From Mesodorylaimus sp. YZB2_4 (taxonomy: Eukaryota; Nematoda; Enoplea; Dorylaimida; Dorylaimidae), in assembly GCA_030248295.1 (NCBI GenBank), contig JASANH010001726.1, positions 62,001 to 126,000 of the forward strand: DNA of 64,000 nucleotides, in the 5' to 3' direction. The first letter of the stretch is position 1. Each line of letters begins with the position of its first letter. Made by a program: the position numbers and the translations under genes. Positions 14,522-61,634 of the stretch are shown in pieces. Under the pieces are notes generated by a model. It was not told the origin of the DNA and made no database searches. It was given only the letters and a program-made list of their open reading frames with translations.

Positions 14522-15443
14522 TAGACCACGGATCGGGTCGGGTTGGGTCGGCTCACTTTTTTGAAAGAACGGGTCAAATGGGTCAAGAATACAGCAATTT
14601 TGCAAGTTACAGTAATACCGTTAGGTTATAGAAACTTTTGCATATCTGTTCATCTCCAGGGATTTGCAGACTTTGCTTTATGCATGCATGCCTTGAATTG
14701 CCTCGTTTTCGTTCCGCCTAACTTCCAAGAATGTCAGGCAAATTGTCAGGTGTGACAATGACCATATTGCGTGACTATGAGAGAGTTTTCATCCCCTGGT
14801 TGGTTTTTTTGGTCTGTGAAGCAATAAAAAAGACCACCTAGAGGTTAAAACGAATCTGATAAATAGGTGGGACTAGCCATACTCTGAGATGGAATTGATG
14901 TGTAATTTTTAACAGGTCTATGAATATTCATAATCATATTTGATTCCTGAATATGACCAATAAGTTCTTGGGACCCGGCTGAAAAACCTGCTATAGCTTG
15001 TGCCCAATCCACAAAAAATGTGCATCAATAATAATCCCCGTACCACCATTCACGTTACCATCGCAAAACAGTTAGCTGTGATCAAAAGTCATAAGCACCC
15101 TGCATTCCTCCATCAGCTACAAAGGTTCTGACAGACAGGAGCTAGTGTCCACCACGTTGGGACTTCGTAAGCAGTGCCTTTTGTGAAGACTAGACTGGAT
15201 GCACACTCTAACGTGAGTTAATATATGTTTTTAGGTATTTCTTTGTTACCAGTAAACCTGATATGTCTCCATTGAAATATTTCCACACAGTCACCTTTAC
15301 AGCAAAGTCAGCACATGTTCAGAGGATTTGTGCAAACCTCAAGCGTCAAGAAACGTCAGCTGCTTATAACAAACTCGGATCAACCCGCCCCGAAATATCG
15401 AGTCAGGGAGGGTCGGGTTGAACCCGACTTGATCCAGTGTCTA
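14522..15443. mobile_element. non-autonomous hAT-like element with GGGTCGG-type subterminal words
   Basis: The element begins TAGACCACGGATCGGGTCGG and ends in the complement of TAGACACTGGATCAAGTCGG. It is flanked by 8-bp near-identical duplications, TCTGAAGG (14514-14521) and CCTGAAGG (15444-15451). Both ends carry repeated GGGTCGG/GGGTTGG words. Duplication length and end design match the hAT superfamily. The 922 bp interior encodes no transposase I can recognise. Confidence 0.72.
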
Positions 15444-15769
15444 CCTGAAGGTAATGGCTGATAACGGGGGGGGGGCAGCCCCTCCCATTACCTGCGAATG
15501 TTCGACCCGCGGCAAGGTGCATTTCTTTCGAAATGTGTCCTTGCGCGTGCCATTGAGTCATCGCGAATGATGTGGTAGAACAGGAACAGTATATTGAGTC
15601 ATATTATGGTACAAGCCGATCTGGAGAACTGTAGTATAAGGGCTGGGAGCAGAAAGTTTGGTGTACACTGGCGAATGTATACTACTGCAGAAATGATGGT
15701 TTTACCAAACGGATTTCTTGCCACTGTTTCGTTTGGGCCGCACTCGCACTACAGATTTTTTAGTCAAGC
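15444..15769. other. no gene seen
   Basis: Contains the right target duplication and a G-rich run (about 15464). Open frames across it continue into the reverse-oriented SINE and are not conserved. Confidence 0.4.
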
Positions 15770-16103
15770 TCGTTTTGCGTATAGCTGGCCAGCAGTCAAA
15801 CCTTGTAAGCAAGACTGTGACGGGACCAGCCCATATAGTGCGGCTGCACTAGGAGCACCTCCACGCGAGGGCATCTTGGCCTGGACACCTAATTCCAACC
15901 ACGATGGCGGGTGGGCTGCCCTGTCGGCGTCCGTCTCTCCACTCGGAGCACCTCGACAGAGTCACCCACGTCCTGGCGTGCAAACGCAGCGATGGTTTAT
16001 GGCTCGCAAAACCTCCATCACCGGGGATCGAACCCGGGACGAGTTCAGCCACTCTCCACAATGGAGAGACGATTGCCGAACCTGTCTGCGCCACCGCGGC
16101 CGC
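15770..16103 (-). repeat. tRNA-derived SINE, family A, copy 2
   Basis: On the minus strand it begins GCGGCCGCGGTGGCGCAGAC (A box TGGCGCAGACA, degenerate), then a perfect B box GGTTCGATCCC. The body includes TCGAGGTGCTCCGAGTGGAG and GTGGAGGTGCTCCTAGTG, and the 3' end is near 15770 at a TTGACTGCTGGCC-like sequence. Very similar to the copy at 3311. Confidence 0.82.
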
Positions 16104-17930: not shown

Positions 17931-17949
17931 TTGGCTCGATCTAAACAAA

Positions 17950-19024
17950 GTATTTTAAGATTTTGCGTAGCTGGCAACGCTGCCGAATTTGTTGGGTCAG
18001 CGTGATATGCATCGAAAAGTACGACTTAGGAAACCCCGCGTCTGTTGTAGACAATGCACGAGACAGAAGAACTAGTGGGAGGTGCCTGAACTAAGAAGTT
18101 AGAACAAAGTGGCTCGAATGTGCGGGCCCTTTAAAAGATTGAAGTTCCGTGAGAACCTGAAAAGTTATCAAACATCAATAGCTATGGAACTTCCCATGCT
18201 ATCCTTCTAGAGCAAAGAAGAATCGTTCTAAACCTCGTACGACCGGCTTCAAGATCATACATGCCGACACCCTATAATAGCCTATAATCATTATAGGCTG
18301 ACCTTCAAAATTTTTGAAAATTTTGAAAAAAAGGCGGGGGATTGCGCAGTCGCGGCCGAGAAAATTTTTTTAAAAAATTCACTTTCATTCAGCTTTTGCC
18401 TGCTCTGGTGCGCATTAGGAATCATTGGTTGAAGGTGTTTTCGCCTCCGCTGCGCAATTGGTACTGTGTACTGGTAACGCGTGGTAATCACGTGCTTCTG
18501 TAATGACTGTAGTAAAAATTAACCGCACAGGTTCACCAAGAAATTACGGACTTAGGTGTCTGCGCATCAAAGACAGCGACGTTTTCATTCATTCATTGGA
18601 TTCCAGGCGCTAGGGGGCCATCGGGATGTCAGGGATGTTGCCCACTTATAGCACTGACTGATCCGACCCTCGACGTGAGTCCCGATCTCGATTTGGGTGA
18701 TCCGTTCAAGAAATGAGATATTTTTATGGATAAGGTTCCCAGCAGCCTGCCCCATATTTCCTTTCATCGCTGTCACTGTCCATCAAACCACTCCAAAAAC
18801 TCAGGAGCACTACCTTGCACCTAAAGCGGGATTCAATTCTGATTTTGGAGGAAAATTGGAGAAGTTTCAAATTGGATTTGGAATGACACATTTCCAGAGA
18901 GAAAGCGTAAAATTTTAGTTCCCAATTCGGCTGATGCAGCAGTCGAATCAAACTGAAGACTGAATGACCCATCATTACGGCGGATCAGTCGATGCTGGGA
19001 GCAATGCTGTTTCAAAAAGAATAT
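17950..19024. other. intergenic, no supported gene
   Basis: No domain-bearing frame or repeat boundary was found. The promoter of the B-box gene would be at the start of this stretch. Confidence 0.4.
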
Positions 19025-19165
19025 TTTCCTACAGGAGGAGGGGTCTGCTCAAGTGGACGTCCATTTTTAAGGGGGTCCAGGCGAAACGGATGAAAGGTGG
19101 ATAGGGGGAGGGGAGTCGAAAAAACGAATTTTTTGGTGGACGTCCTTTATGGATGGCCCCTTGCG
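19025..19165. mobile_element. fragment of a DNA element ending GGATGGCCCCTT
   Basis: G-rich sequence ending GTGGACGTCCTTTATGGATG then GCCCCTT. This resembles the right end of the element at 38962-40392 (GGTCGACCTTTATTGATGGCCCCTA), so it is probably a relative's terminus. It directly abuts the 30-bp tandem array. Confidence 0.5.
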
Positions 19166-20440: not shown

Positions 20441-20652
20441 GGGTCTACACTACCTTGGATACCCAGTCAGCGATGTTGCAAGGCAACGCACGAGAAGTTT
20501 TGTGTTCCCCCTTCAAAAAAGTTTTCCGATTTTATGTCCTCTACTATTTCTTAAGATTTTCAGCTCATATCCACACCCTGATACTAAGTTGGTCAAGCCA
20601 CACATATTTGGGCTCAGCGAAATTGCCAAGTTTGGAAAACATAATAAAATAC

Positions 20653-22039: not shown

Positions 22040-22440
22040 TGCACAAAAAACTGACCTGCTTAATGGATATTCCAGGATCTCGATCCTGATAACGTCAGAA
22101 TTTGACCCCTCCCGATCCCGACATTGAGGCATCGGGATTCTGCATATATATATGTGTGGGCACGCAAGGTACACTCTGATCCATCTCATTTGCGATTCAG
22201 CAGTAGCGATGAAGAGGCAACAAAAACATAAGCTCAAATCGATAATAATAATAGACCCTGCTGATTTGGCTAGCCTCGAAAATCACCCCATGAAAAAGCG
22301 CAAAGAAACCCTGGCTAGCTGACTACAAAGTGTGCTTTAATGAGGAAAATGGGCTTATGGGAAAAAAACAGAAAAATGCAAAAAATCCCGATCAGAATTG
22401 CCCTGATCCCGACCTATCTCTAAACTGCATTGAAAGCGAG
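22040..22440. mobile_element. DNA element with GATCCCGATC words; inverted relative at 39800-40010
   Basis: The left part has GGATCTCGATCC and CCTCCCGATCCCGAC, then GCATCGGGATTCTGCATATA and ATTCAGCAGTAGCGATGAAG. The same order appears reversed at 39800-40010. The right end is probably near AATTGCCCTGATCCCGACCT at about 22425. Interior frames are not coding. Confidence 0.55.
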
Positions 22441-22835
22441 GAACCTTGAAAGTAATTTAGATCATTTTCTGGAATAGTTAGATGTGGCCGACTTTGACAT
22501 GACGCTCCGCTTATATTTAGGATGTTTCATATTTTCACACATGAAACACACATCGTGATGTCTGGCTGTGCTACCAACTTGTGTCACCGCAAAAATACGA
22601 GGGCGTCTCCCTAAGCGATCAAATACCGACGAGAACAGCTAGTCAGCTATCAGCACAGTACCAACTTCGTCGGAATTTAAGAGTTGGAACAAGGAGTCGT
22701 TATCACCCCAGGGCACCTACAGGTATCACCAACGCATTGCCTGGCAGGGGGGAGCAGGGTGCGGGGGGGGGGGGCACACGCGTGGTCAGGAACGGTCGAC
22801 GATGAGCATACACTGAAGATACCCGCTTACTAGAC
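22441..22835. other. no gene seen; G run at 22760-22775
   Basis: Only a G homopolymer run stands out. The stop of the zinc-finger gene lies at the right edge. Confidence 0.4.
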
Positions 22836-24005: not shown

Positions 24006-24007
24006 TA

Positions 24008-29676: not shown

Positions 29677-30441
29677 TCAGAGGCCGTACCACAGAAAGCA
29701 AGTAGGGGGTACCTTTTGGTAAAGATAGGCCTACCTGGAGGTAGAGGCAGGGCTACCCTTACCTTACCAGTACCACAGAAAGAGCAGCTAGAGGGAGCCA
29801 AGTGGTAGAGGGGTGTCTACCCCTATCATTTGGCTACCCTGCTCTGGACCCGTACCACAGAAAACAGATAGAGGTAGGGCACTACCGTTTGGTAGAGGTA
29901 GGGGGTGCCAAAAGATAGGATTACTAATTGGTAACGGGTACAGGTAGAGACAGGCCTACCGCTACCACTAAATGCGGGTAGGGAAAAGATAGAACTACCT
30001 GATCTTTGCTGCCAGCAATCCATTACGTTTTTCTGTCAAGCTCCGCTAATAAGTCTGCACTTGGAAGGAAACAGGTTTTTCTACCTATTATCAGTGGCGG
30101 CAACACATAAAATAGCCATGGCTGCCGGGAAGAAAGGCTGACATCCTTCCGCATTGAAATAGGCCGACTACCTTATCCTACCCATTGTCCATCATCCTGT
30201 GCAGCCGTCTCATCTTTTGCGCGCTCTTTCGAATTGATTTCTTTGCCTACCTGTTGGCTACCCTCCTCTAGAGCAGGGTAGCCAAATGATAGGGGTAGAC
30301 ATCTACCTCTACCAGTTGGCTCCCTTTAGCTGCTCTTTCTGTGGTACTGGTAAGGGGGAGGATAGCCCTGTCTCTACCTCCAGGTAGGCCTATCTTTGCC
30401 AAAAGGTACCCCCTACCTGCTTTCTGTGGCACGGCCTCTGA
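29677..30441. mobile_element. foldback element, arms about 165 bp, ends CAGAGGCCGTACCACAG
   Basis: 29677-29845 is repeated in inverted form at 30270-30441. Ends read TCAGAGGCCGTACCACAGAA and its complement. The arms are full of GGTAG/CTACC words. It overlaps a second inverted pair (29846-30258 with 30442-30850), giving an interleaved arrangement: arm 1, arm 2, arm 1 inverted, arm 2 inverted. Confidence 0.85.
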
Positions 30442-30850
30442 AGGAGGGTGCCAACGGGTAGGGAAAGAAATCAATACGAAAGAGCGCGCAAAAGATGGGC
30501 CGGCTGCACAGGATGATAGACAATGGGCAGGATAAGGTAGTCGACCTATCTAAATGCGGAATGATGTCAGCCTTTCTCCATGGCTATTTTATGTGTTGCC
30601 GCCACTGATAATGGGTAGAAAAACCTGTTTCCTTCCAAGTGCAGACTTATTAGCGGAGTTAAACAGAAAACGTAATGGATTGCTGGCAGCAAAGATCAGG
30701 TAGTTCATCTTTTCCCTACCCGCATTTAGTGGTAGCAGTAGGCCTGTCTCTACCTCTACCCGTTACCAATTGGTAATCCTAACTTTTGGCACCCCCTACC
30801 TCTACCAAACGGCAGTGCCCTACCTCTATCTGCTTCTGTGGTACGGGTCC
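29846..30850. mobile_element. larger foldback pair, arms about 410 bp
   Basis: Starts GGACCCGTACCACAGAAAAC and ends in the complement. Both arms share GGCAGCAATCCATTACGTTT-like words, the TCAGTGGCGGCAACAC block and GCGCGCTCTTTCG. No coding capacity seen. The inner loop is occupied by the inverted arm of the 29677 element. Confidence 0.85.
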
Positions 30851-31430
30851 TGGCTGAAGACGCCAGTTTAGGAAACCCGTTCTCAGAGAGCTGGCTGTGG
30901 GCGATTCACCAGGAATTCAATTGTAGGTGGAAGTGGTGCCCTAGATTAGGAAAACTGATCCCAATTGCCAGTCGGGGCCCTCCATTGTTGCCCTCTATCA
31001 TCCGGAAACGCTGATTCTGGCGCAGGATGCCCTCGGCGGTGATGCTCTAGCAGCTACAAGTGAGGCCGTCAGATGGAACCTGCCATGAGAGTTAATCGCC
31101 TCACTCACTTCCGCACCCGTCATTATGACTGCTGGCTGGCAACTGGCAAAACCCATAGGAAATTGGGGTAGGAAGGGGGCCGAGCCCAAAAAAATTTTAA
31201 AATCTGTCCTCATATTGGCCACCTTCTACTCTAAGAAGTCAAGTCTAGAAGCGAAACGGGATATTGCAGGTGCAGTTGGACAGTACAAATTTGTGAAATT
31301 CTACGCTGTCGCCTCAGACAGCATGAGGCAAGGGACGATCACGTTAACTTAGTCCTAAACTTCTCCTCCCCTGTCCGTTTTTGCCCGAAATCCGTCAGCC
31401 CCTTTCTCCCTGACTGCGGGTGCTGTAAAA
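30851..31430. mobile_element. body of a repeat shared with 55350-56110
   Basis: CTGGCTGAAGACGCCAGTTT onward matches 55350-56110 in the same orientation over several hundred bases, with indels. Shared words include CGCAGGATGCCCTCGGCGGT and GAAGTCAAGTCTAGAAGCG. The 3' part of this copy is interrupted at about 31430 by another foldback arm. Confidence 0.8.
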
Positions 31431-31437
31431 AATAGAA

Positions 31438-31766
31438 CACATAAAACACATAAAAAAGCCACGGCTGCCGGGGAGAAAGGCTGACATCCTTCCGCATTCA
31501 GATAGGTCGACTACCTTATCCTACCTATTGTTTATCATCTTTTGCGCGCTCTTTCGTATTGATTTCTTTCCCTACACGTTGGCTACCCTCCTCTAGAGCA
31601 GGGTAGCCAAATGATAGGGGTAGACATCTACCTCTACCAGTTGGCTCCCTCTAGCTGCTCTTTCTGTGGTACTGGTAAGGGTGAGGATAGCCCTGTCTCT
31701 ACCTCCAGGTAGGCCTATCTTTGCCAAAAGGTACCCCCTACCTGCTTTCTGTGGTACGGCCTCAGA
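31438..31766. mobile_element. third copy of the CTACC-rich foldback arm
   Basis: Matches 30110-30441 in the same direction (CATCCTTCCGCATTCAGATA … TGCTTTCTGTGGTACGGCC). It sits between the body (30851-31430) and the end module (31780-32068) of another repeat, so it probably inserted into that repeat. Confidence 0.8.
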
Positions 31767-31779
31767 ATAGAACTAAGGC

Positions 31780-32068
31780 GTTTCAGTCAGGGTTGCCCCC
31801 ATCAACCTCTCACAAGCCAAATGAGCCGCGCTCCTATGTGGACAGAAGGTGGGTGGGGTCGAAACTTGCAAAAAACGTCGATGTGATGCATTGGCGGCCA
31901 GTCCAGTGGGGTGAAGCGTCGATCCTAGCTGCCTGCATGAAGACATGACTGGACGCCAGAGAAAAAATTTTGGCGGGAATCCAAAATCCCGATCCGGCCG
32001 ACCCACAGCTTGGGTCGGCTCCCCCAAACCGATCCGGCCCGGATCGGTGGGTCGGTCGATGCTGGCTA
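31780..32068. mobile_element. end module of the GTCGATGCTGG repeat family
   Basis: Reverse complement of 55030-55345. Ends in CCGATCCGGCCCGGATCGGT then GGGTCGGTCGATGCTGG. Shared internal words include CATGAAGACATGACTGGACG. No coding sequence. Confidence 0.8.
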
Positions 32069-34078
32069 GTACCCTCATGAATATACTAGGTCGTATTTTG
32101 GAGTAAGTTCGAAAGCTTGGAGTTTTGAAATACGATTGCCTTTTGTTACCTCGAACTTACTTGGAAACAGTGAGGACTTGCTGCAGTAAGCTAGCATCTG
32201 TCGTGACAGCACGAGTAATGAATGTGTGGCACCTACCCAGTGATACTGAAACAAGAAATTTAGCTTCTGTGCAGCCAGCATACTCATAGCTGTAGGCGTA
32301 CAGCCTTCTGCAATAGAACTAACGACCATCGGCCCTTGTGTTGTCATCTCTTTATCGCCTGCATGAAGTGGCTGAGGTAGGGGACGCCCTGTTACACTTT
32401 TTATTAGTGACAGTGTAGCAATTCTGTGTTGTCACAATATTTCTGTTAACGCGGCCGAGGGAGCCCAGCCAACCTCGTCTCGCCCTGCATTTGGTTCGAG
32501 TAGGGTGGCTGGGCTAACCTTTTCGTTGTCTGATGACAGAATTTTTTAGAAATATGGCTATGATGTGGGACAGGACTAGACGGTGCATGCTTCATTTGTT
32601 GGGACCATGGAGCACATGGGGCACAAGATCTCAAGCTCTATGTTTATGATATGATTAGATTCACAACCGGATTGGATCGGATTGGAAAAATTTCAGATCA
32701 TCGGATTAAAAAAGGAAGCATCCATGCCGAATATTGATCTCATTTATTACACAATATAAAAATGGAGTGAGTGAGAAAAATTGCGCGGTACTTCGTTGTT
32801 TGCCTACGGTTAATGCAGAAACTATAGATTGTCGGATCTGATGGCTCAGATCGGATGATCCGATCCGGATGGTGATTTTTCGGACCGAATATCTGATCCG
32901 AAGGGATGGGATCTGATCCGATCCGGCCGTGAGATTACATATTACATTTCAAGATACGGTATGAATCATGTATAATTCGACGATCGCGGATTTAGAAACA
33001 TTTTAGGCCAGTTGTTTTCCCACAAGAGGTTCGTAGCATGTGGATGCTCATGTGCCCACTATGTGTTACATTCAAAGATGGTCATCGAAATATTATGATC
33101 TCCCCAGAAATAATGTTTGCACACTACTGCACGTACAGACGCATTTAAAAGTTTTCATCAACTTTTAATCCAATCTGGTCTAAATCTTACTTCAATCAGA
33201 AATTCTTTCAATCCAGTCCAATCCATGCTTGTGGTAAGTAATGACCCTCAGTCAGACACAGAGCCCACAGGAACGTGAATCGCTCAGCCCGCCAGCCTCA
33301 ATGGGTGTGCTCTCAACACAGATATTCCTTGCAAGTCTTAGTTTTCAGCTTTTAAAATAGGCGCTCAGGGGCGTAAGCATTTATAACAAGAAGGCACCTT
33401 TCACCTAAAGACAGTACGAAAAAAAAGAATTGCGCAAACTTTGCTTGCTTGACGCAGGTTCCCACCCATTATGCATGTGTCAATAACGCGATTATTTCGC
33501 GCGGTTTTTTTTAAAAACTATCACAATTTTTCCAATAATTTATTAAGCCCAATTTTATCAAGAACCAGTCTCCAATTGAACTCGATTGTAAATCGCGCAT
33601 TCAAGCTCGAAAAGAATGGGTGCCAAGTAAGCCATTCGATGGTGCTTGTCTGTTTTTTCCAACTACTATAGGCACACTGGAAGTAATAATCTCACTTGGT
33701 GGCCTTTTTTGGCAATGCAAACTAAATTAAACTTACTTGTTGATTGTTTGAATTTGTAAAAGTTAGTTTGCCAGTCCAGCGTGTGAATATTAGCAAAGAC
33801 ACAGTTTCTATGCTCTACCACCACCTTTAATATACAGGGGTGCACGCATATGAACATTCAGTAGTAACCAGATATAGGCCACTCCGAAACCGCCATGCGA
33901 GAGGAATGCCTTTGCCTAGTACCCTCAGTTTTGACCTACTTCGAGTTCCTTTGGTACACATTCCAGCTGGCAGTGCTGCACTAGTCTTTATACAGGCAGT
34001 TATGTCTGTGAATGTCAGCAGCCTTCACTGTAACATCAAAATTCTGTTTTCTAGAGATTAAAAGAGAGATCGTCAAAA
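32069..34078. other. intergenic before the nucleoside hydrolase; GGATC-rich repeat at 32660-32940
   Basis: At 32660-32700 and 32830-32930 the words GGATCGGATTGG, GGATCTGATCC and GATCCGATCCGG recur, resembling the paired word arrays of the other elements; outer ends are not clear. No host gene was recognised in the rest. A TTTTCTAG acceptor-like site (34053-34054) lies 24 bases before the hydrolase ATG. Confidence 0.45.
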
Positions 34079-37000
34079 ATGAAATTCCTAATTGATACTG
34101 ATATGGGATTGGACGACGCTTGTGCACTCATATTGTCATTATCGCACCCAGAAGTCGAGGTGTTGGCGATAACTACAGTTTTCGGCAATGTACCTGTTAG
34201 GCAAGCTGTGGCGAACGCCAGCAGAATCAGGCGGCTTGTAAAACGTGAGCAAGTAAGTAAAACTGAAGTTTCAGCTAGTACAGTTCGCCGTATTTTGTCA
34301 AAACAGCAGAGGAAAACCTGTTTCGCTTAAAACCCCGAAAAACATACTGGAAATAAATTTTGTGTGTCAGTTCTGGACTAAAAAAGGATAATAAAGGCGA
34401 AAGGACAAAACTAGTTTCTAGAATTTTGACATTGTGAGCAAAAATCTCGAAAAATTTTGAGCTCCACGCGGCGTAACACAGCATTTCCTGTCATACTTCC
34501 TAACCTCACGATCACTCACGATAACTGCAGGGGCGTGCGCAGGATCGAATATTTTCTAGGTTGCCGTATGTTCAAGGTTGCCGACTAATGTATAAAGATA
34601 CGGGAGAGGTCAAACCCGTGCTAGGTTGCCGACCGATGGTCATCTACAGTAAATAAAGTATGATGCGCAAGTACATTTTCTGTTATGTTAGTTTATCGGA
34701 AACTGTGCGCACTGTTTCCAGAGCATCTGGAGCGCCACCACGCGGCCAATGCTGAAGGGGCGCGGTGGGACTGGTATCCGCGCCGCCCGATATCGCGTGG
34801 TGCTCTGTTGCACAGAGAAGCGCACTGTACCACATTAACATGGAACAGAGGCGCGGCGTTATGTGGCGTGGCGGCGTCTTCTTTTGAAAATTTTCCGGAA
34901 TTTTAGCTGAAAGTGTTTACGAAAGAAGAATACAAGTTATGGTGCAGTTCGATTTATTAATACAATTCGCAGACATCTTTTAATATGCTCGTTTGCGAAA
35001 GTCAAACTCACAATCAGCCTTATCATTTTTATTTGTGTCAATATATCCCCCCTTGGCGGGCCGGCAGAGTCCAAGGACTACCAACCATGCAGAGGGCTGG
35101 ACTGGAATACCAGAATGAGCGCGAGCTCCAGCTATAAATAAATGTGTTTGGTGTCTTATTGCCTGAGATTCTGCGTTATTGTCTGTTTTGAAAAATCTTT
35201 TGAATAGTGGGGATAAAAAGCTATGACGCTTGATCATGAATACGAAGGAACAGAGAGCTAAAGGGTGCATGTATTGATTTTGGATCAATTATGTGTGTAA
35301 AAATGGGCTTGAATGTCAAAAACGATATTTAGAATACATGTGGCCTGACTTTGCCAGTGTAGGTACGAATCAAAATGCAGTTAGCACAGTTCATATAGTT
35401 TTTATTTCGCGCCTATCGCGCCTCTTACTATTAGTTGGCAACCTAGGAAAGGTTTGACCTCTCCCGTACCCTTTTACATTAGTCGACAACCTTGGACATG
35501 CGGCAACCTAGCTGTAGGATACTACGGCAGGGTTTGAGGAGGGGTGCGAGGCGGGGGTGTGCACCCACCCCGCCCCGTGAAAAATTTAGGTTTTCAGGCA
35601 CCCAGACGTTGATTTTTCTCTATAACCCACCGTTCAAGCTTAATTAATTCTCACCACTTCAACCTTTGCACCAAGTGCCGAGTATGGGGAAAAATGTGTA
35701 CAGGTCACTTTTTCTGGGGAGGAGGGTTTATTTACACCCTTGCACACCCCCTGCGTACGCGCCTGAACTGCACGATCTGTGCTTTGAAGTCGAAGTCATA
35801 CGATACAATACAATAGTAGTAGACAATAGGTCGGTGCTACACAGAGCTACAGTACATCAGTTACTACTACTGTACAACTAGAAGGATCTAAAATGCGCCA
35901 ATTTTGTTTTTCTTCACAATCACCTGATTTTTCAAGAGAAACTTGCTTAGTGCACACTACAGCACACAGCAGCATCAAAAAGTGTCCTCTAGTCATTTTT
36001 AAAGACCTACAGTATATTTTCAAGCATATTCTGTGACATAGTGCTCACACGTAAGTGAAGTGACACCCGAATGGGGTCGACTGTAGGTAGCGTTGATAAC
36101 GTCACAGTTAACTGAATCTGAAACTGAATCTCCTCTCCAAACCGAATATAACTGTAATTGAATCTTCTAAGAATCAGTTAAATTCAGTTTTCAAATTACC
36201 GCGTTTTTAAAAATTAGTGATATGTTTCCGGATGTTCGTGCAGTTCTCAAGAGAAACGAGACGCAGCTAGACGAAGTGCTGGTTCGATCGCGAGTTATAG
36301 ATATTTTGTCACCCGTAAAAGCCCTAACTAGCCGCAAAAAATGGATCCGTTCGAATTTTGGTTTACATATACGGTAGAGAAACCTTGCCACATATTCACG
36401 AGGATTGTAGGGCTTTGTTCATTTAAAATGCTATCATTTAATGCCAGGTTAGTGTTGAGTGAAAGAGTTCTAAGCTAGGCGAGGCCCATGTTGAAAAGCA
36501 GCCAACATAATTAAAATATAATAAAAGTTACTTTATGAAAAAGGCTTTCTTCAATTTCAATCATTTTATTACAAACATTGTAAAGTTACATCTTCTTGAG
36601 CTTAGAAAGCTTTGCCAACCAGTAAGTTGAATTTAACATGCATATTCGATAATTCCTAAGTTCCTGGTCTGAAAGAAAGAAAGCTCTATTGAAAATTTTT
36701 GACCCTTCTGGCCAGCTGGTCAGCATTGGCCAGAGCCTAAAATCTTGCGGTTTTTTAAATTCTTGTGGCAAGGCGACAGAAAGTTGAGAAACACTAGCAA
36801 GGCTTTTCTGAACCCGCTGTTCAGGTCATTGGCTTTGGTTCCGTCTTCCAGCCTTCTAGTTCTGGGTTTCTTTGCCCAAAAGACCCGACGAAGCGGGAAA
36901 GTTTCTAAAAATTTGCATGACTTCGGCCGCTGACCATTGCTGAGTAGTTGGCCAAAGTAGCTGAATATTTTACGCAGAGCTTTCTTTTGCACCAAAAGAA

Positions 37001-40000
37001 ATTACACTCATTAACTATGACAAGCTCAAATTCGAACGGTTACAAGGCTCCCCTGTGAGCTGTTTGACATCGTAAATGCGAAAGAGTAGTTATTTGAATG
37101 GAGAACGGTGGAAATTTTTCTCGTCAAGTCTTCATATGTAGATGCGAAATTCTTTTTACGGAAAAACTGAAACAATCAGTTAAATTCAGTCAACTGAATC
37201 TTTTGAGATCCAGTTGACTGAAACTGAAAGTGAAACTGAATCTTTTCTCCGGAACTGTATCAACGCTAACTGTAGGGCAGATACATGTGACTGTCATCGC
37301 CTGAGATCAATTCCACAGTCAGTCAGTGCATGCAAACATGTCGACTTCACCTATTTTCCAAAATGGCCCTAATTTATGAATCTCAGAAAAAGTTTAGTGT
37401 TTATACTGTATCAGTATTCGAAATCAAGGATTAGCATAAAGGATTCGATAGCGTAGAGGACCCCAATCAGCAAAAATTCACCCAGTTACCTTTTTGATAC
37501 AGGAAATTGCAAATACATACTGAGACCATCAATATACAGCCCTAGTGGAGTTCTAGTACCTACCTGCCCTAAAAGTTCATTAGGAGATCTAGTCAAAAGT
37601 GTTGTCATTGTCAGTTAAGTAGCTCTGAAACCAGTCCTCTGTAGAGATATAGGAAGAGAGCACTGCCTACTCCATTAGAATTTTCCTCTATGTAGAACCC
37701 CTTCAATTTTCACACAGGTTCCGATTTATGCTGGCGCTAGTAAACCTCTTATTGCTCCGTCTATCGCCCCTGGATATCCCACCCATATTCACGGAAATGA
37801 TGGTCTTGGTGACATCCCAGACATATTTCCTGCAGCCATCGAATCCGATTCCGAATCTGCTGTGCAAGGGAAGACTGCAGCTCTAGCGATATTGGATATC
37901 GTGAGCCATAATCCAGGTATGCTTTGATGACTGCTGGAACTGTAGCATGCATTCCAGCGTGCAAAATTTCATGGCTGGGGTTTTCTTTTTGAAACAATAT
38001 TTTGTGAGAAAATTGTTTTGTGAAATAGAAATAGAATAAAAGAACAAGTCCCTTGCGGGAATCGAAGCGGGATTACTACGCAAGCGTACTAACCGTAACA
38101 GAAAAAAGGTTTTTTAGGGTGCACAATGATTTGTCTGGGTCCATTGACCAATTTGGCATTGGCTTTAAAGCTTGATCCAGCGCTATCCTCCAGAATGGGA
38201 CATGTGTATGTGATGGGCGGCAATATACATGGTAAGTGAACCCTCTCTCTTGTCATTTTACTATGCACACATGAGGTACAGGTGGTTATTTTAGAGACAG
38301 GGTGCTTAACTTTGTGAGGTCCTAGTAACTACTAACAAATTATGTTATCCCTATTTTTTCCATATTTTATCATTATCTATCCCTAGTTTTCTTCTTTTTC
38401 AGCTCGAGGTAATGCTCCTTCGATACAGACAGCTGAATTCAATTTTTTCTTGGATCCAGAAGCTGCACATATTGTCCTTTCTGAACTACAGTGCCCTATT
38501 ACAGCGCTGCCTTGGGAAACGTATTTGAAAGAATCATGCACACCCGTAAGTTCCTTCAGCATATGCTAAAAGCCACATTCGAATCTCAAAAGGCAGCTTT
38601 CTGTGATGGTCGACCTAGTATTGCCAAGCTTCAATTCTTGACTCCCACCCTCATTTTCATGTGACTTCGATGCATGTAGTGAAGAAAGGATTGTGCGATT
38701 CACCCTTACATTTAGCAAATGCCCATTTTCTGAAAACGGGTGGGCACACTGGCATATTCGAAATTTGGGGGTGAAGTCTTTCGGTCGGGGTATCTCACGA
38801 ACAGTACTATTTTTTACTCAGTGTGAGAGAAATTTTCAAGAATCCCCAATTGCGTAATTTTTTGAGTTCATTTTGAGATTTTTTGGATACTTCTAGAGCG
38901 AGTGGCAACAGAGACGTTGCTAATATCGCCTAAGGACTTGATTTTTATGTTTTTAAACAGATAGGGGCCATTCATAAAGGTCGACCGCAGCCTGGGGGGA
39001 GGCGGGGGGTAGCAAAAAAGTGGTCAGGTGCGGTCGGGGGAGGGGAAGGGGTAGCGGCCGATGGTCGACCGCAGCAAATTTTTAAACTTTTGATGACAAA
39101 AAACACCTTTTATCTTCACCAGTAGTGCGCGTTCAAACCTTCAAAACTTTTTGTCTTCTCTTCTCCTTGGTCGTTCATTCTCGATAATGCAATTTCGGGT
39201 TTATCAGGACTCTTATTTCCAACTGGAATAGCATCTGATCCGAAAAGGAAAAGTTGGGAGGCGGTGGCTCAGCTGGTTAAGGGCGTTAACCCGCCTTGCT
39301 GGCCGGCAGCCCTGACTGGGAGGCCGACGGGAGACGGCAGTTTAGTAGCTTGTCGCTGGTTTTGGACACGGCTTTGGGCGACTCCCCTGCCACTGTCAAA
39401 TGGCGCCCACCCAAAAGGTGTAGAATTGGGAAACCGTCCTCGAACACCAGTCGGGAAGGTCCCTAAGCTAAGCCCAAGCCCCCTCTCACCCAGTATGCCC
39501 TCGTGTGGAGGTGCTCCTAGTGAAGACACAGGGAGCCTGCCGTGAGAGCTGGTCACTTCTGGGGATAGGTCGGGATTGCCTTCCTCCAGGATCGCGATTG
39601 TTTGTTTGAAGTCGTACATTGTTTGCACATACGAAGGAGATGAGTCTATTTTCCTCACTAAAGCACACTTTGGTCATTCAGATTTTTTAAAGCTTTCTTC
39701 AGGTCGAGTTTCAGTCATTATAAATTAACTGAAGTCGACGAGTACATTCGCAGTTTCGATACGCGTCCAGCAAGGTCAGCCTAGGCTAAGTAAAATCAGT
39801 GTTGCTATCATTATCGATTTGAGTCGATGTTGCTGTTGCCTCTTCATCGCTACTGTTTCATAGCAGATATGATGGATCAGAGTGTACCTGCCATGCTTAC
39901 GCATATCATAATTATTAGCAGAATCCCGACGCCTCAATGTTAGGATCAGGATCAGGACTGGGAGGGGTCATCCCGATGGGATCGGGATCCCTAACGTTAG

Positions 40001-41759: not shown

Positions 41760-42500
41760 CATTTCCCATGCCAGGTGCGCACTACCAGCGAGCGTTCGAT
41801 CCTCGATTGGATAAATCATTTCGTGTGAATTGTCCCTTCGCTGTTGAGAACCTTCGATTTGGTTTTAGAGCTATTGACTGACCTGGACTGGTTCTCGATT
41901 TGCCTTGTGGCAGGGCGGCCAGTTCACCTGCTGTTTTGTGCCTGTTTGTGTGTGCCTTTGGTGGCCCTCTCACAATCAGTCGGAGTCGGGCCGCCATAGT
42001 AAACGGCCAACATCGACCGATCGACCGATCCGGCCAGATCGATCCGCCGATCGGAGGGGTGGATCGGCTCTTGATCCGATCCAGCTGCTGGATCGGCAAC
42101 TAATATTTTTCGCGCTTTATCTGCCCGGAAATGATAGAATGTGACCAACTATAACTGCAAAATCCCTTTTTTCTTTCAAATCAATGCTCAATCTAGCTTT
42201 TATGTGCTGCTCTCAACTCCTCTATGTCCTTTGGAGTGGTCTAACAGAGATGACAGCGAGGAATCATGGCAGGTCGGGGAGGACGCAGTGCCAAACACGT
42301 CATCCCCATCTATCTTCAATTTTTTGAGCGGATTGGCCGGATTTGTTTGGGATCGGGCAAATCCACACTCTGGATCGGATCGGGATTGAGATCCAGGCCT
42401 GCGGTCGGATCGGTCGATGCTGGGTGAACGGTCGCTCTCGTATCGCGTCCCCAGTCGGCCCTCTAGCGCGTGGGAGGGCGGCCAGTTCACGTGATCATTT
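41760..42500. mobile_element. rearranged member of the GTCGATGCTGG repeat family
   Basis: Contains AACATCGACCGATCGACCGA (about 42009), GATCGGTCGATGCTGG (about 42408) and two copies of GGGCGGCCAGTTCAC (41915, 42478). These words also occur, in other order, at 55030-56236. A GATCGATCCGCCGATC-type word array marks one end. Likely fragments of two nested copies. Confidence 0.55.
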
Positions 42501-42689: not shown

Positions 42690-44165
42690 GGTCCGATATT
42701 GGGTCCTAAAACCCAACACAACCCAACCCATTTTTTGGGGTTTTTTGGATTGGGTTGGGTTGGTTCGAGTTTTTACACAGGGTGGTTCTGGGCTGTGGAG
42801 GTTGACCTGTTTGAACCCAGCTCCCAAAAAACTGATTTTTCCACTTGGGGTAGCGTTTTGAGTCGGCATAGGCATGTGGTCGGTTGGCGGCCTTTTGAAG
42901 CCACTGCTCTGCTGTCTGTTGGTTTCGAATGGTTGACCTTTTATCCAAGCGAACCCAAAGAAAACCACTTTTCCACTTATTGTGCCTTATTCGTCAGCAG
43001 AAGCATGTGGTTGATTGGCACAGCGTTTTGAAGCCGCTGTTGTATGATGTCCATTGGTTTCGAGTCAACAGATCCTTGTGCGTCAAAAACGTACCCAGTG
43101 TCCCCAGCTAGTCTGATTCGACATGTCAGTCTGACTGTGACAGAATTGAGAAATCATCTGTCAGCAATGACATCCAGCGCTGACTTGATCTCTCGTTGAC
43201 TCTCAGTCAGAGATCAGGTCAGCAGGTCCTAATTTTGAAATTTTGAAATTTTGAAAGCTTGGTCGGTCAGAATCCATGAAGAAGCTTTTCGCTTGAGCGA
43301 GCGGCTTGAGCTTTCAGCTGGGCTTAAGAGTGTGATTTCTTGCCTTGAGGCGGATATTTCCTCCAAATTTATTCATAGTCTGCTGAGAATCATGTCTGTG
43401 AGAGGCCAATTTTGCAAAGATTTTGCCTCCAGCCCCTTCACTCCCCCCCCCCCCCCACTCGGGCGATTGGCGCTCATCCTAGAGCTCTAAATTATAGCAT
43501 ATTTATGCAAACATTTTGTTGGCCCCCTGAAGAGCCTGAAATCCTGCGTGCGCGCCTGAACTGACGTGAGCCCCACGGCTCTGTTGGCGTGTAAGTATGA
43601 TGACGGGTGACCAGCATCTCCCTGTTCGAGGAGCAGGGCTTGTAAGATTAGTGCCCTGGTGAAAATGGTCCCCCAGTTGGGGTCATGTTATCTGAAACTT
43701 ACAGCTCGAAAAGGGAATGGGCGTTGAGATGTGAGTAGGATAACTCTCAGGTCTCGGGTTGTTTTTGGAGGAGGCCAAAAGCCGAATGTGGAGGTGCAGT
43801 CAGATTACAGGTCATGCCACCAGAGCCGTGGGGAGGCCAGGAGAGACTCTTCCACTATCACAACTTCTTCAGGGAAGATTTTCGAGTAAAGCCACTATGA
43901 TGAGCCAATCGGTCAGGTCGCTTAGTAAAGAATGGTAGCATTTTCACAAAAAATGTGTGTCATACTGATAATATACTTCGCTGAGCAAAAGTGGTTTTTG
44001 GGGTTTTTGTCGATTTTTTTCAAAAATACCTGTTTTTATGGGTTGGAGTTGGGTTCACTAGCGAATCGGTTGGGTTTGACATTTTCAAAATGGGTTTGGG
44101 TTGAGTTCGACTTCAAAATTTTTTGGGTTGAGGTTGATTCGAACTGTGAACCCGTTGTAGGACCA
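42690..44165. mobile_element. element with GGGTTGGGTT-word ends
   Basis: Left end GGGTCCTAAAACCCAACACA followed by repeated CCCAACC/GGGTTGG words; right end repeated GGGTTGGGTT/GGGTTTGGGT then GTTGTAGGACC. The ends mirror each other loosely. A C run (43443-43456) and a triple ATTTTGAA repeat (43229-43250) lie inside. No transposase recognised. Confidence 0.55.
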
Positions 44166-48837: not shown

Positions 48838-48947
48838 ATGCACTTTGGGTCGGGTCGGGTCGGGCCCGGGTCGGGCCGACCCAGGATCTGGGTCGGGTCG
48901 GGTCGGGTCGGAAGTGTTAGGCCTGGGTCGGCCGATGCTGGCCAGTT
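48838..48947. mobile_element. short GGGTCGG word array ending in CCGATGCTGG
   Basis: About nine GGGTCGG-type words are packed here, then GGGTCGGCCGATGCTGGCC, the terminus of the family at 55030-56236. Probably a solo end or tiny internally deleted copy. Confidence 0.6.
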
Positions 48948-49007
48948 TCCCTTAAAATAGTTTCAGTATTTATTGTTTTCTTATCCTCTATCATCATATT
49001 TCTTCAG

Positions 49008-52566: not shown

Positions 52567-52726
52567 TAGTGTTAGAAATGACCTCAAGGTCAAGGTCAGA
52601 ATTCTGTCAAAACCCTGATTGACCGACCCCTGGTCAAAGTCAAGGTCAAGGTCAAAAAAATTTTTGGGGTCTGCTCAAGGTCAGGCTCAGGTCAGACAGT
52701 GAAAAACCCAGGTCATTGGAACACTA
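52567..52726. mobile_element. 160-bp hAT-like mini-element with AAGGTCA words
   Basis: Left end TAGTGTTAGAAATGACCT, right end the complement of TAGTGTTCCAATGACCT. It is flanked by ACCAGTTA (52559-52566) and AACAGTTA (52727-52734), an 8-bp duplication with one mismatch. Inside are five TCAAGGTCA sites (starts 52584, 52590, 52640, 52646, 52675). Nothing coding. Confidence 0.82.
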
Positions 52727-52924
52727 AACAGTTATCATAAAAGAGCGGATGCCTCATGGGTTGCAGCCGAAGCGTTGACTGCAATAAACAAGGCACTTCA
52801 CTGCTTCCCATGATCACATGCACCTGGAATATTAGCTCAGATTGGTCCGTGCCATTTACTGTATGGCAAGTGAATCGTATCGTATTCATTACGGTTGGTG
52901 AAAATATTTACTTGATTTGAATTA

Positions 52925-53620
52925 GCGTTGATACAGTTTTGGAAAAAAGATTCCGTCTCAGTTTCAGTTAACTCGATCTTAAAACATTGAGTTAACTCAG
53001 TTTAACTAAATGGTTTTGTTTTTCTGTCAAAAATTTTTTCGTGTCCAAATATGAACGCTTAGCGAACAGAAATATTCACTTTTCGTCATTCAGATACCGC
53101 CTTTTTGCATGTAAGGCTCCAAACAGTTCACAAAGAACCCTTGTCGGCCATGTCGAACTTGACACAATGAAGGATTGTTATTTGTATCAGTGCAAAAGAA
53201 TGTTCTCTGCAAAATCTTGGGCCCGTCTGACCAACTGGTCAGCAGTGGTGCGCCTGAAATCCTGCGCATTTTTTAAAGTCACCCTTCTCTGTCGGTGACC
53301 GAAACCCGAGTGTTAGAACAGCAGCTCAACGCCTAGAACCTGAAAACCGATCTTTAGAAAAAACCTTGTAAGTTTTTTCAATACTCTGTCTTGTCACAGG
53401 AATTCAAAAACTTGCAGGACTTTAGCCTCTGACCATTGCTGACCAGATGGCCAGACGGGTTCAATATTTTGCAAATAACTTGCCTTTATACCAGGGAAAA
53501 AATTACAGGCATTGATTATGCCACGTTCGAACTGACAGTCGCCAAGGCTCCCTCAGAAAAAGAAGATGCAACTTTAACAGTTGCCCTATAAAATGATTGA
53601 AATAATGAAAACTCTATTTT
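52925..53620. mobile_element. relative of the 36088 hAT-like element, with foldback module copy 3
   Basis: Left end TAGCGTTGATACAGTTTTGG, then CAGTTTCAGTTAACTCGATC words. The interior has CTGACCAACTGGTCAGCAGT mirrored by GACCATTGCTGACCAGATGG. The right side GAAGATGCAACTTTAACAGT and AAAATGATTGAAATAATGAA mirrors 36540-36595. The right terminus is missing or unrecognisable. Confidence 0.72.
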
Positions 53621-55029: not shown

Positions 55030-56236
55030 CCCAGCATCGACCGACCCGCCGAACCGACCCAACGATCCGGATCGGATCGGGTTGGGGGAACCGACACAAG
55101 CTGTGGGTCGGCCGGATCGAAATTTTTAATTCCCGCCAAAATTTTTTTCTCTGGCGTCCAGTCATGTCTTCATGCAGGCAGCTAGGATCGACACTTCAAC
55201 CCACTGGACTGGCCGCCCATGCATGACATGGACGTTTTTTGCAAGTTCCGACTCCACCCACCTTCTGTCCACATAGGAGCGCGGCTCATTTGGCTTGTGA
55301 GAGGTTGATGGGGGGCAGCCCTGACTGAACCGCCTTAATTCTAATCTGGCTGAAGACGTCAGTTTAGGAAACCCGTTCTCAGAGAACTGGCTGTGCGCGA
55401 TTCACCAGGACTTCAATTGGAGGTGGAAGTGGTTGTGAACTGGCCGCCCTGCCACGCGATAGAGGGCAACCGCTTACTAAGGCGGCCCGACCCCCAACTA
55501 AAAAAAAAAGGCCCCCCAAAGCCACAAAAAAAAACAGGAAAAAAACAGCAGGTTAGTATCAATGCAATCAAGAACCAGCCCAGGACAAACCCAAGGCCAT
55601 GAGCAAACTGGTCCTAATTGCCAGTCGGGACCATCCGTTCTTGCCCTCTTTCATCCGGATACGCCGATTCTGGCGCAGGATGCCCTCGGCGGTGATGCTC
55701 CAGCTTGGAGCTGCTCCGCTGGCCTCACTTGGCCAGCAGAGCCTCCAAGTGAGGCCGTCAGAGGGAGCCTGTCATGGGAGTTGATCGCCTCACACACTGC
55801 CGAACCCGTCATTATGACTGCTGGCTGGCAGCTGGCAACCCATAGGAACTTGGGGTAGGTGGGGGGCCAAGCCCAGAAAAATTTAAAAGCTGTCCTCATA
55901 CCGGCCACCTTCTACTCTAAGAAGTCAAGTCCAGAAGCGAAACGGGATATTGCAGGTGCTGTTGGACAGTAAAAATTTGTGAAACTCTACGCTGTCGCCT
56001 CAGACAGCATGAGGCAAGGGACGATCACGTTAACTTATTCCTAAACTTCTCCTTCCCTGTCCGTTTTTGCCCGAAGTCCGTCAGCCCCTTCCTCCCTGAC
56101 TGCGGGTGTCTGTTATCGATGGTTCTTTATCGAAGAAAGAAAGTGCATACAACGTTGGGTCGGGTGGATCGGGTCGGTTCTGGATCGGGTCGGGTCGGTT
56201 TAGTGACCTCACACCCGGGTCGGTCGATGCTAGCAT
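55030..56236. mobile_element. most complete copy of the GTCGATGCTGG repeat family
   Basis: Left end CAGCATCGACCGACCCGCCG, right end complement TAGCATCGACCGACCCGGG. Both ends are dense in GGATCGGGTCGG words. Flanks GCATCTGT (just outside the left CC) and GCATCTGG (after the right end) look like a near-exact 8-bp duplication. The body 55350-56110 matches 30851-31430, and its left module matches 31780-32068 inverted. No open transposase frame; A/K-rich text at about 55500 is low complexity. Confidence 0.75.
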
Positions 56237-58525: not shown

Positions 58526-58700
58526 CGGCTGTGATGACAAAGCGGGAATGATGATTCTTGTACAACTTTCTAGTCAATATCGTTCATCAATGCCATTTTC
58601 AGGAAACTTGCAATCTGCAGTCTCACCTCAACAACACATGATCTAAGAAAGCAAATAATTTACACTAGCCTACCGAAGCACATTCTGGTACACAGTTTCC

Positions 58701-61634
58701 TCATAACCTCCTCGCTTTTCGTGGCCTCGGACCTTTCTCTTTTAATTCGGTACCATCGGTCAATGAAACGATATTGACCCCAGTGGCTGACATACCTTGA
58801 ACACACGACATGCGCCCAGGACCCAGACCGCGTAGAATGACGCGCACATGAGTCAAGCCACGACGAAGGCATTTACTGCCAGCCGATACACCCACCGTCT
58901 GACCAGCCACTTCACTTTTCTTTTTGCAATTTTTAAATCCCTCGATACTGGCTGATGTGCGAAATAACTCGACACCTTTGTAATCGACGGCTGCTACTTT
59001 CGTGTTGTTCTTGGATAGGAAGATACGAATTTCGGGTAATTCCGCGTAAGGTACGCCACCGAACTGTTCACGCAATGTTTCCAAAGTTGGGTAAGAAGCA
59101 GCCTACAAAAAGATAAACGTTGTCTACGTACGAACAGAAAATCTTTTATTGCATTTTGTACTGAAGAAAATTCTGTAAAGCCTAGACAAAGTTTTGCATT
59201 TTGCATTATTCTCTATCCACCCAAAAGGGCGGGTATTCAAAGCAGTGAATGAGGAGCACACCACTGATGTTTTACAGAGTACAGTAATGGGGTAGGCACC
59301 AGGCACGATCTGCGGAACACGTGCTCGATGTGCTAATCATGTATACACGAATGTGTTGGGGATTGTTCGAACGAAAACACGGCCGCATGTCCTTCGATTA
59401 AAAAATACTTCCCTAAAGTTTGAGCGACAGCAAACTGCAGCTGAAAAAATCTTCCATATACACCTCACACAAAGCCTTATTGAAATGGATATCAATATGT
59501 AACAACTCGGCTGCCAGTCGACCCTCTTCCGAGATCTGAGAACGTAACCCGTCGGGTAGCGTTCGTTCGGGATCATTATTTTCGGGATCGGTATCGGGAT
59601 CGGGACTCGCTCAATCCCGACCGGGATCGGGACAGGATCGGGATTTCGTGAAGAGAGCGCTTTTCATTGGCTATAGATGACCTACAACCCACCCTGAGTA
59701 GCCAGCAAATTAAAAGCCACAAATTCCCTTTCCTTGGATAATTTTTAGTGCAGTATTTATCATTGCATTTAAAATCAGGCAAGCGAAAAATCAGTTACAA
59801 ATTAGCAAACAAATCCCCTCCTTCTCCTCTATCAATTCAATCATCCGCCAAGGTCTCTATATTTCCCCCTCTGAAATATTTTGATGGCCATGACCATCTG
59901 AGTCAGTGTCAAGCAGAATGTCGCCAGCTTCTGCAGCAGACCCACCATCTAATGATGGCAAATGCGGGCTGTTACTGTATCCAACTGGGCGCAAATCGTA
60001 CATCAGAAAAAGCAGGACTTGTGCATTTTATGGGAGTAGTTTCATCTGATCATGCCATTATCACCCCTACAGCTCGTTTCCCATACACCAGCCCCATTCC
60101 CTGTTGCAATAAAAACATTCTATCACCACAATATTCAGTCCCCAATCCCGAACACTTTTTATCGGGATCGGGTTCGGGAGGGGCAATCCCGACCGGGATT
60201 GGGATCGGGACCGGGATCCCGAACGAACGCTACCGTCGGGGCGAGGTTTCAGCGATAGATCAGCTCAAAAGACTAGTTGCTCTGGGTGCATGGAACGGGC
60301 CCTTTCACCGCCCACCCCTTCGGTAACAGCGCCTTTTATGAACACCCCTCTCATCATTGTCGCGGTGAACACCCTCCCTCCTTGTTACTGAATTAGCGTT
60401 CGTTCAGGATCCTGATTCCGGTCGGGATTACCCCTTCGAAAACCCGATCACGAAAAAAAGTGGACGGGATTTGAGGCTGAATGTTGTGGAGATAAAAAGT
60501 CTTTATTGCAACAGGGAACTGGACTGGTGTATGGAAAACTAGCTGTAGGGGCGAAAATGGCATGATCGAATGAGACTACTACCATAAAATGCAGAAGTCC
60601 TGCTTTTCCATATCTGCTTCATCATCTGCAGCAAGCTGACAACATTCTGATGGGCACTGACACAGATGATCATGGCGATCAGAATGTTTCAGAAGGGAAA
60701 TACAGACTTTGGCGGATGATTGAATAAATAGAGGGGAAGGAAGAGATTTGTTAGCTAATTTGTAATGGATTCTCCGCTTTCTTTGCTTGCCTGATTTTGA
60801 GCGCAATAAATACTGCAGTAAACATTATCTAGGAGAGGGGATCTTTGGCTTTTTATTTGCTGGGTACTAAGGCTGGGTTGTGGGTCATCTACAGCGAATG
60901 AAAAAAGCTCTCTAGAAATCTAGATTCCGGTCCCGAACGAACGCTATTGTGGATCCATCAGACGCTCCGTCGAACGGAACTCTTAGCGGCTTTCTAGAAC
61001 AGTTGCACCAATCGCACGTGCAGGTTTCAGGTTCACTGTGATTGCGGCACCATGTCGACTGCTTTTTCCAAGTCCAACAAATCCGATGTCTTTGCGCGCT
61101 GCTTCTCTGCAGACCTCTTCCCCTGGGCGAGCGACGCCGCTTCTGAATTGACGCTGCTTGCAAAAGACCCTCCCACAAGAACTGACGCCCTCTATAGGAG
61201 GAACTTACTCTTGTATCAACAAATTCAAAGGCTTTTTCTCCAGCCACACCTTCCGACACTTCGCCCACACCAGCTCTATGCGATCGTTTATCTTTATCCA
61301 CCCCCGCCCGAACCATTTTTACTGGAGCTCCGGCGAAATATGACTTCAAATTCGCAGCGCTACTTTTTTCCGACTCGTCAACGTCAACATCGGTGCTCTT
61401 TGATGGTTTTGCAGGGGCCACTGCTGGTTTTCCCACTGGTTTTTTCACTGCGATTTCGCTGATAACATTCTTCACAAGATCGTCTTTCGAAGTCGTCGAC
61501 GAATCTTCGCCAAACCGGCGAAATCCAAGTATTAACTGCGAAGCTGCGTTAGAAGGTGACTTGACAAAATTTGACTGGAACTTCGGCGAAATCCGGAGAA
61601 CAGAAAGAGCAGCATAGAGAGAACGAGATAACAT
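58701..61634 (-). CDS. MRPS11: mitochondrial small-subunit ribosomal protein uS11m, two exons
   Basis: Component of the mitoribosome small-subunit platform. Exon 1 (61634-61209) encodes an N-terminal mitochondrial targeting-type sequence (MLSRSLYAALSVLRISPKF) and a poorly conserved Lys/Ala/Ser-rich linker. It ends FEFVDTR|GTAAGT. Exon 2 (59102-58701), after TCTTTTTGTAG, encodes the uS11 fold: YAELPEIRIFLSKNNTKVAA, TSASIEGFKNCKKKSEVAGQ, GLTHVRVILRGLGPGRMS, VNIVSLTDGT and the C-terminal PRPRKARRL. Junction phase 0, total 275 residues, longer than the human protein (194) because of the linker. The longer frame running past the donor in exon 1 is intronic. The 2,106-bp intron holds two inverted TEs and a coding-like fragment (60957-61190). 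Confidence 0.92.
59557..60232. mobile_element. hAT-like element with GGGATCGGGATC words and exact 8-bp duplication
   Basis: Begins TAGCGTTCGTTCGGGATC and ends in the exact complement GATCCCGAACGAACGCTA. Exact duplications CCGTCGGG flank it (59549-59556, 60233-60240). Both ends carry many CGGGATCGGGAT words. 676 bp, lying in the uS11m intron, no transposase. Confidence 0.92.
60394..60946. mobile_element. second copy of the TAGCGTTCGTT element, inverted
   Basis: Ends TAGCGTTCGTTCAGGATC and GGTCCCGAACGAACGCTA. The interior (about 60580-60830) is the reverse complement of 59740-60060, e.g. AGTATTTATTGCGCTCAAAA against the complement side. Flanks TACTGAAT and TTGTGGAT match at only 5 of 8 positions, so the duplication is decayed or absent. 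Confidence 0.85.
60957..61190 (-). pseudogene. coding-like fragment related to 62565-63284, unidentified
   Basis: Minus-strand frame reads DIGFVGLGKSSRHGAAITVN then LKPARAIGATVLESR and a stop. The same text in diverged form occurs at 63284-63140 (LDLGNSRRAATVTVNMGG) and 62620-62565 (RAIGATVMKAEKSSVRWSV). The copy here is continuous, whereas the other is split by about 530 bases. A one-base indel before the end gives this copy an earlier stop. Family not recognised. Confidence 0.4.

Follow-up and report, generated by a model that had tools for sequence, protein, structure and literature searches.

A one-base word difference at the ends of related hAT-like transposon families in the nematode Mesodorylaimus sp. 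YZB2_4

Based on a 64,000-nucleotide stretch of the Mesodorylaimus sp. YZB2_4 genome (contig JASANH010001726.1, positions 62,001 to 126,000; hereafter the window, part of contig C41) and on searches of the whole 145-Mb assembly (GCA_030248295.1; 1,067 contigs), we describe five groups of short mobile elements, named families A to E, whose ends are crowded with repeated words of a few bases. In family E the terminal frame is held while one base of the word moves. The best explanation of the whole, which we regard as probable when its parts are taken jointly, is that these elements are hAT DNA transposons, mostly non-autonomous copies, in which the words are predicted binding sites of the transposase BED zinc finger and have been switched word by word among sister families of the E group. 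Three such sisters, referred to as E-C, E-T and E-A, share one frame, CCAGCATCGACC plus spacers, and most of their CCGAN words, at both ends, differ after CCGA, with C, T or A according to the family.

One terminus and one variable base in family E

The terminus CCAGCATCGACC has 1,217 matches in the genome (611+606), against 30 (20+10) for its reversed control. With at most one mismatch, it is also the terminus of two window elements (42007-42423 and 55031-56233) and of three solitary ends (at 48941, 32065 and 18998). The initial annotation, made from the window alone, had counted the ends at 42000, 48838 and 55030 among seven further ends carrying other words; since these three share CCAGCATCGACC, they belong to one family, E. 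As first word after the terminus, 474 ends have CCGATCC, 249 CCGACCC, 64 CCGAACC and 4 CCGAGCC, together 791 of the 1,217 terminus matches; the reversed controls of these patterns have 0 matches.

From the first 100 places listed, we took the 22 convergent pairs of termini lying within 4 kb of each other and fetched their 80-bp ends; 15 of these pairs are flanked by a target-site duplication (TSD) matching at 7 or more of 8 positions. The first-word base is the same at both ends in all 22 pairs (17 with T and 5 with C at both ends), an agreement expected once in 26,334 under random pairing, although the elements descend from few lineages and do not count as independent. The matches listed for contigs C1-C23 include 21 convergent neighbours no more than 4 kb apart; 19 of these agree, and one of the two disagreeing pairs has another terminus between its members (C8:113523).

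The base is also switched further along the arrays. Within 150 bp of both ends, the counts of A/C/G/T after CCGA are 1/19/0/4 in a transposase-encoding E-C copy (locus L069), 24/0/0/0 in a transposase-encoding E-A copy (L070), 0/1/0/11 in the window element 42007-42423 and 1/9/0/4 in the window element 55031-56233; a transposase-encoding copy of family D (L071) has 3/3/0/9. In one pair of E-C and E-T left ends, the only differences over 47 positions are at 15, 23 and 37, in each case at the base that follows CCGA; L070 carries A at all three. Left and right ends were aligned as hand-picked rows grouped by first-word base, with 8 rows for C, 14 for T and 1 for A on each side, degraded or unclear rows being left out (e.g. 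left 06_5, 07, 15_3, 19 and w18998; right 07, 11_5, 12_5 and 19_5). Before column 53 (zero-based) of the left-end alignment, the majority base of the 8 E-C rows differs from that of the 14 E-T rows at columns 14 and 36 only. Column 14 is the grouping base and differs by construction; column 36, which is free of this constraint, has C in 7 of the 8 E-C rows and T in 10 of the 14 E-T rows. At column 22, also independent of the grouping, C is found in 3/3 E-C rows reaching the column and T in 6/6 E-T rows. Apart from the coding parts, similarity between E-C and E-A transposon DNA (E up to 1e-5) is confined to a terminal stretch of 41 bp that is 83% identical. The suggestion of the initial annotation that words differ among relatives while the terminal frame is kept is thus borne out by the E sisters, whose words differ by one base.

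It is rather unlikely, in our judgement, that the words are binding sites but that C, T and A after CCGA reflect neutral drift or mutational bias (for instance decay of C to T) that became fixed in founder copies, a single relaxed BED specificity for CCGAN serving all families. Such drift would fit the E-C/E-T difference at the compared left-end words, which is a transition, as well as the persistence of mixed words in E-C and E-T and the span of the families over three of the four bases. However, the E-A changes at the three positions compared are transversions and 24/24 of its words are CCGAA, the CpG within CCGA, which is the likeliest site of decay, is retained, and G after CCGA is nearly absent (4 ends); moreover, neutral change would be expected in spacers and words alike.

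Several observations nevertheless weigh against a word-by-word switch of recognition. The 22/22 agreement reflects few lineages rather than 22 events, and a TSD is missing from 7 of these pairs. When the majority word over 58 bp per end was used instead of the first word, agreement was weak, at 14 of 20 pairs (shuffled mean 10.1, P 0.042; the 2 of 22 pairs without words were dropped); 58 bp is too noisy for this purpose, hence our use of the first-word base. The 47-bp E-C/E-T pair was picked as the best-aligned one after the ends had been seen, and of the 11 differences between L070 and the E-C end, 8 lie outside the three word positions. The switch is also incomplete: E-C left ends usually retain a CCGAT, CCGAA is often retained in both E-C and E-T, GACCC is the second word in 9 of 14 E-T right ends, and at the right ends the spacers differ too. 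On the protein side, the BED fingers of E-C and E-A are identical at 25 of 50 positions and are no more diverged than the remainder of the protein, the E-A protein comes from one copy, and no transposase-encoding E-T copy was found among the fetched loci or the places listed.

Transposase-encoding copies of families D and E

Searched with PF05699, the profile of the C-terminal hAT dimerisation domain, the genome gave at least 94 matches and 14 control genomes gave none; of 171 candidates, 150 were scored. Six of the hAT-domain loci were fetched (L069-L074), and in four of them (L069, L070, L071 and L074) a blind search found an exact TSD and matched ends around the open reading frame (ORF). 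The TSD is ATTCAGAA in L071, which has TAGCGTTCGTTCGG at both ends, and GTCTATAA in L074; both loci carry TAGCGTTCGTTC and GGGATC words, and as they share the terminus and the words of family D, they are transposase-encoding forms of it. The 676-bp D element of the window aligns to L071 and, judged by sequence, is an internally deleted relative of these copies. Immediately 5' of the long D transposase frame of L071 stands a TAG (L071:2453-2455), which could belong to a splice acceptor or act as a stop codon here.

The two other loci belong to family E. L069 (E-C) has the exact TSD TCCTTAGG and CCAGCATCGACCGA at both ends, and L070 (E-A) has the exact TSD AGCCTAAA, with CCAGC and CAAGC at its ends; both share the terminus CCAGCATCGACC, which is distinct from that of D. 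PF05699 scores above its cut-off in the ORFs of L069, L070, L071 and L072 and also at the place of L074, while zf-BED does so in L069 and L070 once the upstream exon is joined to the next; in L071 no BED exon could be made out. Among solved structures, Hermes (8edg) is the best relative of L070, the one transposase compared (E 5.5e-15, residues 129-610). The BED finger of L070, compared with solved structures, gave ZBED2 at E 0.55 and chance matches, Hermes not being among them. Counting back by eye from the zinc-ligand histidine, the positions of the Hermes base contacts read NNSS in E-C and SPTP in E-A, which at 25/50 identity proves nothing; this level of identity neither supports nor opposes a change in specificity.

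The L069 and L070 transposases are 51% identical to each other, and each is about 31% identical to that of D. These values bear on the idea that the shared E frame results from convergence or from end capture, by recombination of unrelated elements, instead of divergence of sister families. Related words do occur under the different termini of A, D, E and a further element at 32661, as capture might produce; nevertheless, E-C and E-A share both their ends and half-identical transposases, the more distant E and D transposases go with different ends, and ends thus track transposase relatedness in the three known cases. We therefore regard convergence or capture as very unlikely.

The initial annotation had called all these elements hAT-like. 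This holds for D and E, whose same-ended copies encode hAT transposases; for A, B and C, the termini are absent from the six fetched loci, and no transposase-encoding partner was found there. A comparison by eye of terminus places with hAT-domain places, among the matches listed, gave no further transposase-encoding copy.

Locus L072 (G000:C25:104500-111000) contains an intact 607-aa hAT ORF (L072:1762-3582) with a BED-like exon upstream. Its protein is 47-53% identical to the E transposases, but neither an end pair nor a TSD was found in the 6.5 kb, and it is possibly a host-adopted gene or a copy whose ends have been lost. No end pair was found in L073 either.

Families A to D as insertions

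The four elements of the initial annotation, here the window copies of families A to D, lie where it had placed them (Table 1), two with exact 8-bp duplications (36088-37268 and 59557-60232) and two with duplications matching at 7/8 positions. A blind scan of the window for 7-bp inverted ends with an 8-bp TSD gave 23 candidates and recovered three of the four; the element at 14522-15443 was missed because its terminal inverted repeat (TIR) is below the 7-bp seed. Since several of the candidates look like chance, a single copy proves little and other copies are needed as evidence. In genome searches for each family, 40 of 606-705 candidates were scored, and copy numbers are thus lower bounds. 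Among the candidates scored, identity to the window copy is 94-98% for D, 86-95% for C, mostly 77-81% for B and about 69-76% for A.

Taking the best TSD among fuzzy termini, with a match of at least 7/8 and with the window's own copy among the fetched loci, we found TSDs in 7 of 8 loci of D, 18 of 30 of B and, under stricter termini, 19 of 30 of A (looser termini gave 18/30, including a false terminus at L022). In A, B, D and E the duplications lie at differing sites. Families A, B and D are therefore certainly multi-copy insertions, and the 8-bp duplications of the initial annotation are borne out. Family C, in which 3 of 7 copies other than the window's have such a TSD, gives weaker evidence and is likely an insertion of the same kind.

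Elements of the hAT superfamily follow the terminal consensus YARNG, and the Ac-like hAT group prefers nTnnnnAn targets. The termini of B (TAGCG), C (TAGTG) and D (TAGCG) fit the consensus, in agreement with the initial annotation; that of A (TAGAC), which had been included, misfits at the fifth base, and CCAGC of E does not fit either. T stands at TSD position 2 with a frequency of 0.46 (64 TSDs with their complements, so that A at position 7 has the same value, and without a shuffled control).

Word arrays belong to the element ends

The density of words by distance from the end was computed on TSD-bearing copies of A, B and D. From 0-50 bp through 50-100 bp to the middle of the element, GGGTC falls in A from 73 and 63 to 3 per kb (19 elements), AACTGA in B from 59 and 57 to 0.3 per kb (18 elements) and GGGATC in D from 67 and 31 to 0 per kb (7 elements). 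With E included, words reach 31-100 per kb in the outer 100 bp and are concentrated in the outer 100-150 bp, while the flanks outside the elements have 0-4 per kb and the remainder of the window 0.24-1.15 per kb for the A, B and D words, or up to 1.4 per kb with those of E. Dense at the ends and sparse in the middle, in the flanks and in the remainder of the window, the words thus belong to the ends, and the subterminal arrays reported in the initial annotation were confirmed by measurement in A, B, D and E.

It is decidedly improbable that the words are ordinary microsatellites grown by slippage inside transposon ends and devoid of a binding role, the alternative that the initial annotation had itself raised. 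Array length does vary among copies of A (the longest perfect GGGTC run is 1 to 6 units per locus in 30 loci, flanks included), and Tandem Repeats Finder detects one 5-bp array in the window (48847-48911). In contrast, the words stand on both strands and are separated by spacers instead of forming uninterrupted arrays independent of the ends; they crowd both ends of A, B, D and E, in deleted as well as in transposase-encoding copies of D and E, and perfect GGGATC runs reach at most 1-2 units in 8 D loci. Slippage also leaves unexplained the same base in the separate arrays of both ends, and substitutions in homologous, interspersed words whose spacers stay the same.

The words are not as private as first supposed, each family having been credited with a word of its own. 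The GGGTC arrays of A read CCGAC on the opposite strand, a word common to A and E-C, while the core CCGAT is common to D (as CCCGAT repeats), E-T and the 32661 element. CCGAN words therefore occur under the different termini of A, D, E and the 32661 element, so that such a word is not the mark of one family.

Other elements and ends in the window

The elements and ends of the window are collected in Table 1. Partner ends were looked for in the window for the E ends at 48941, 32065 and 18998, and none was found. Of the further ends proposed initially, that at 32660 proved to be an element, known from its window copy alone, whereas an end-pair search at 22040, 29677 and 42690 gave no pair.

Table 1. 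Transposon-like elements and ends in the window (positions counted from its first letter)
Feature	Position	Length	Terminus	Words	TSD or flanks
Family A element	14522..15443	922 bp	TAGACCACGGATC/TAGACACTGGATC	GGGTC	TCTGAAGG/CCTGAAGG, 7/8
Family E-like end	18909..18998 (-)		at 18998, one mismatch		
Family E-C end	31960..32065 (-)		at 32065		
Further hAT-like element	32661..32932	272 bp	TCACAACCGGATTGG/TCACGGCCGGATCGG	around CCGAT	GATTAGAT/GATTACAT, 7/8
Family B element	36088..37268	1181 bp	TAGCGTTGAT	AACTGA(ATCT)	ACTGTAGG, exact
Family E-T element	42007..42423	417 bp	CCA(A/G)CATCGACC	CCGAT	GTAAACGG/GTGAACGG, 7/8
Family E-C end	48838..48941 (-)		at 48941, one mismatch	GGGTC	
Family C element	52567..52726	160 bp	TAGTGTT	AAGGTCA	ACCAGTTA/AACAGTTA, 7/8
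Solitary family B terminus (+)	52923..52936				
Family E-C element	55031..56233	1203 bp		CCGAC, main word at both ends	CATCTGTC/CATCTGGG, 6/8
Family D element	59557..60232	676 bp	TAGCGTTCGTTCGG	GGGATC	CCGTCGGG, exact
Second family D element, inverted relative to the adjoining first	60394..60946				none

The two D elements (59557-60946) are 84% complementary over 176 bp, with a TSD on the first element only. At 22040-22450 there are D-like CCCGATC words, and no TAGCGTT terminus pair was found there. The region 29677-31766 consists of large nested inverted repeats rich in GGTAG/CTACC (arms of 87-135 nt, 90-96% complementary), within which the TIR and TSD pairs listed for it fall. An end-like cluster of CCAACCC/GGGTTGG words lies at 42690-42770; its partner end was looked for and none detected. 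The window also has ORFs that we take, by eye, to represent a GMP reductase-like gene and alpha-1,3-fucosyltransferase-like genes.

Relation to known hAT systems and significance

Repeated subterminal sites and diverse BED specificity are already known. The BED domains of Hermes bind AAGT repeats in the subterminal regions and contact bases there through residues 63-67 and 70 (PMC10368747). Hermes resembles the present elements in its hAT transposase (by sequence), its BED finger, its short subterminal repeats near both ends and its 8-bp target site; its repeats, however, are AAGT-like and scattered, whereas here we find dense arrays of 5-6 bp words and sisters that are one base apart (PMC10368747). 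A subterminal motif has been shown for Herves, and the same work cites single-base variants of Tag1 motifs that differ in affinity (PMC3143072). In Herves, as in Tag1, Ac and Tol2 as cited there, a repeated subterminal motif suffices for binding, and single-base variants of different affinity likewise occur; these variants coexist inside one element, whereas here one variant dominates both ends family-wide (PMC3143072). The hAT-derived BED proteins have diverse specificities, with at least eight distinct motifs in coelacanth (PMC8097297). The CGGBP / hAT-19 group is reminiscent of our families in having several BED-type hAT proteins of widely diverging specificity per genome, with motifs that match the subterminal regions of transposons as our words do; that work differs in that it measured protein motifs across species, while we compare the DNA side, at homologous ends, in one genome (PMC8097297). 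By titles and abstract starts, we recognised in the open-access literature no sister hAT families of one genome with ends recoded at one word base, and three of the terminal sequences do not occur in the open-access papers searched. The present elements are further hAT members, with an unusually clean divergence series.

In the mechanism we propose, the N-terminal BED zinc finger of each transposase would bind the subterminal words, its putative sites, and thereby bring the two ends together for excision. If the base after CCGA sets the specificity, a recognition switch made word by word would reduce the ability of each sister to mobilise copies of the others, and escape from cross-mobilisation by non-autonomous copies may have been its driver. 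A bolder formulation, on which we are evenly divided, is that the E families form a natural allelic series for a recognition code: an ancestral end would have been recoded in place, one word after another and at both ends, to the C, T or A form of CCGAN as BED specificity shifted, isolating sister hAT families within one genome, with deleted copies following the new word.

The joint change of recognition in a transposase and at its many end sites is an open problem, since every copy of the site must follow. The E sisters offer a clean system for it, in which the BED fingers are related, the end DNA is matched and a single genome supplies hundreds of ends, and they may yield a short code table, relating the base after CCGA to BED residues, for orthogonal hAT vectors.

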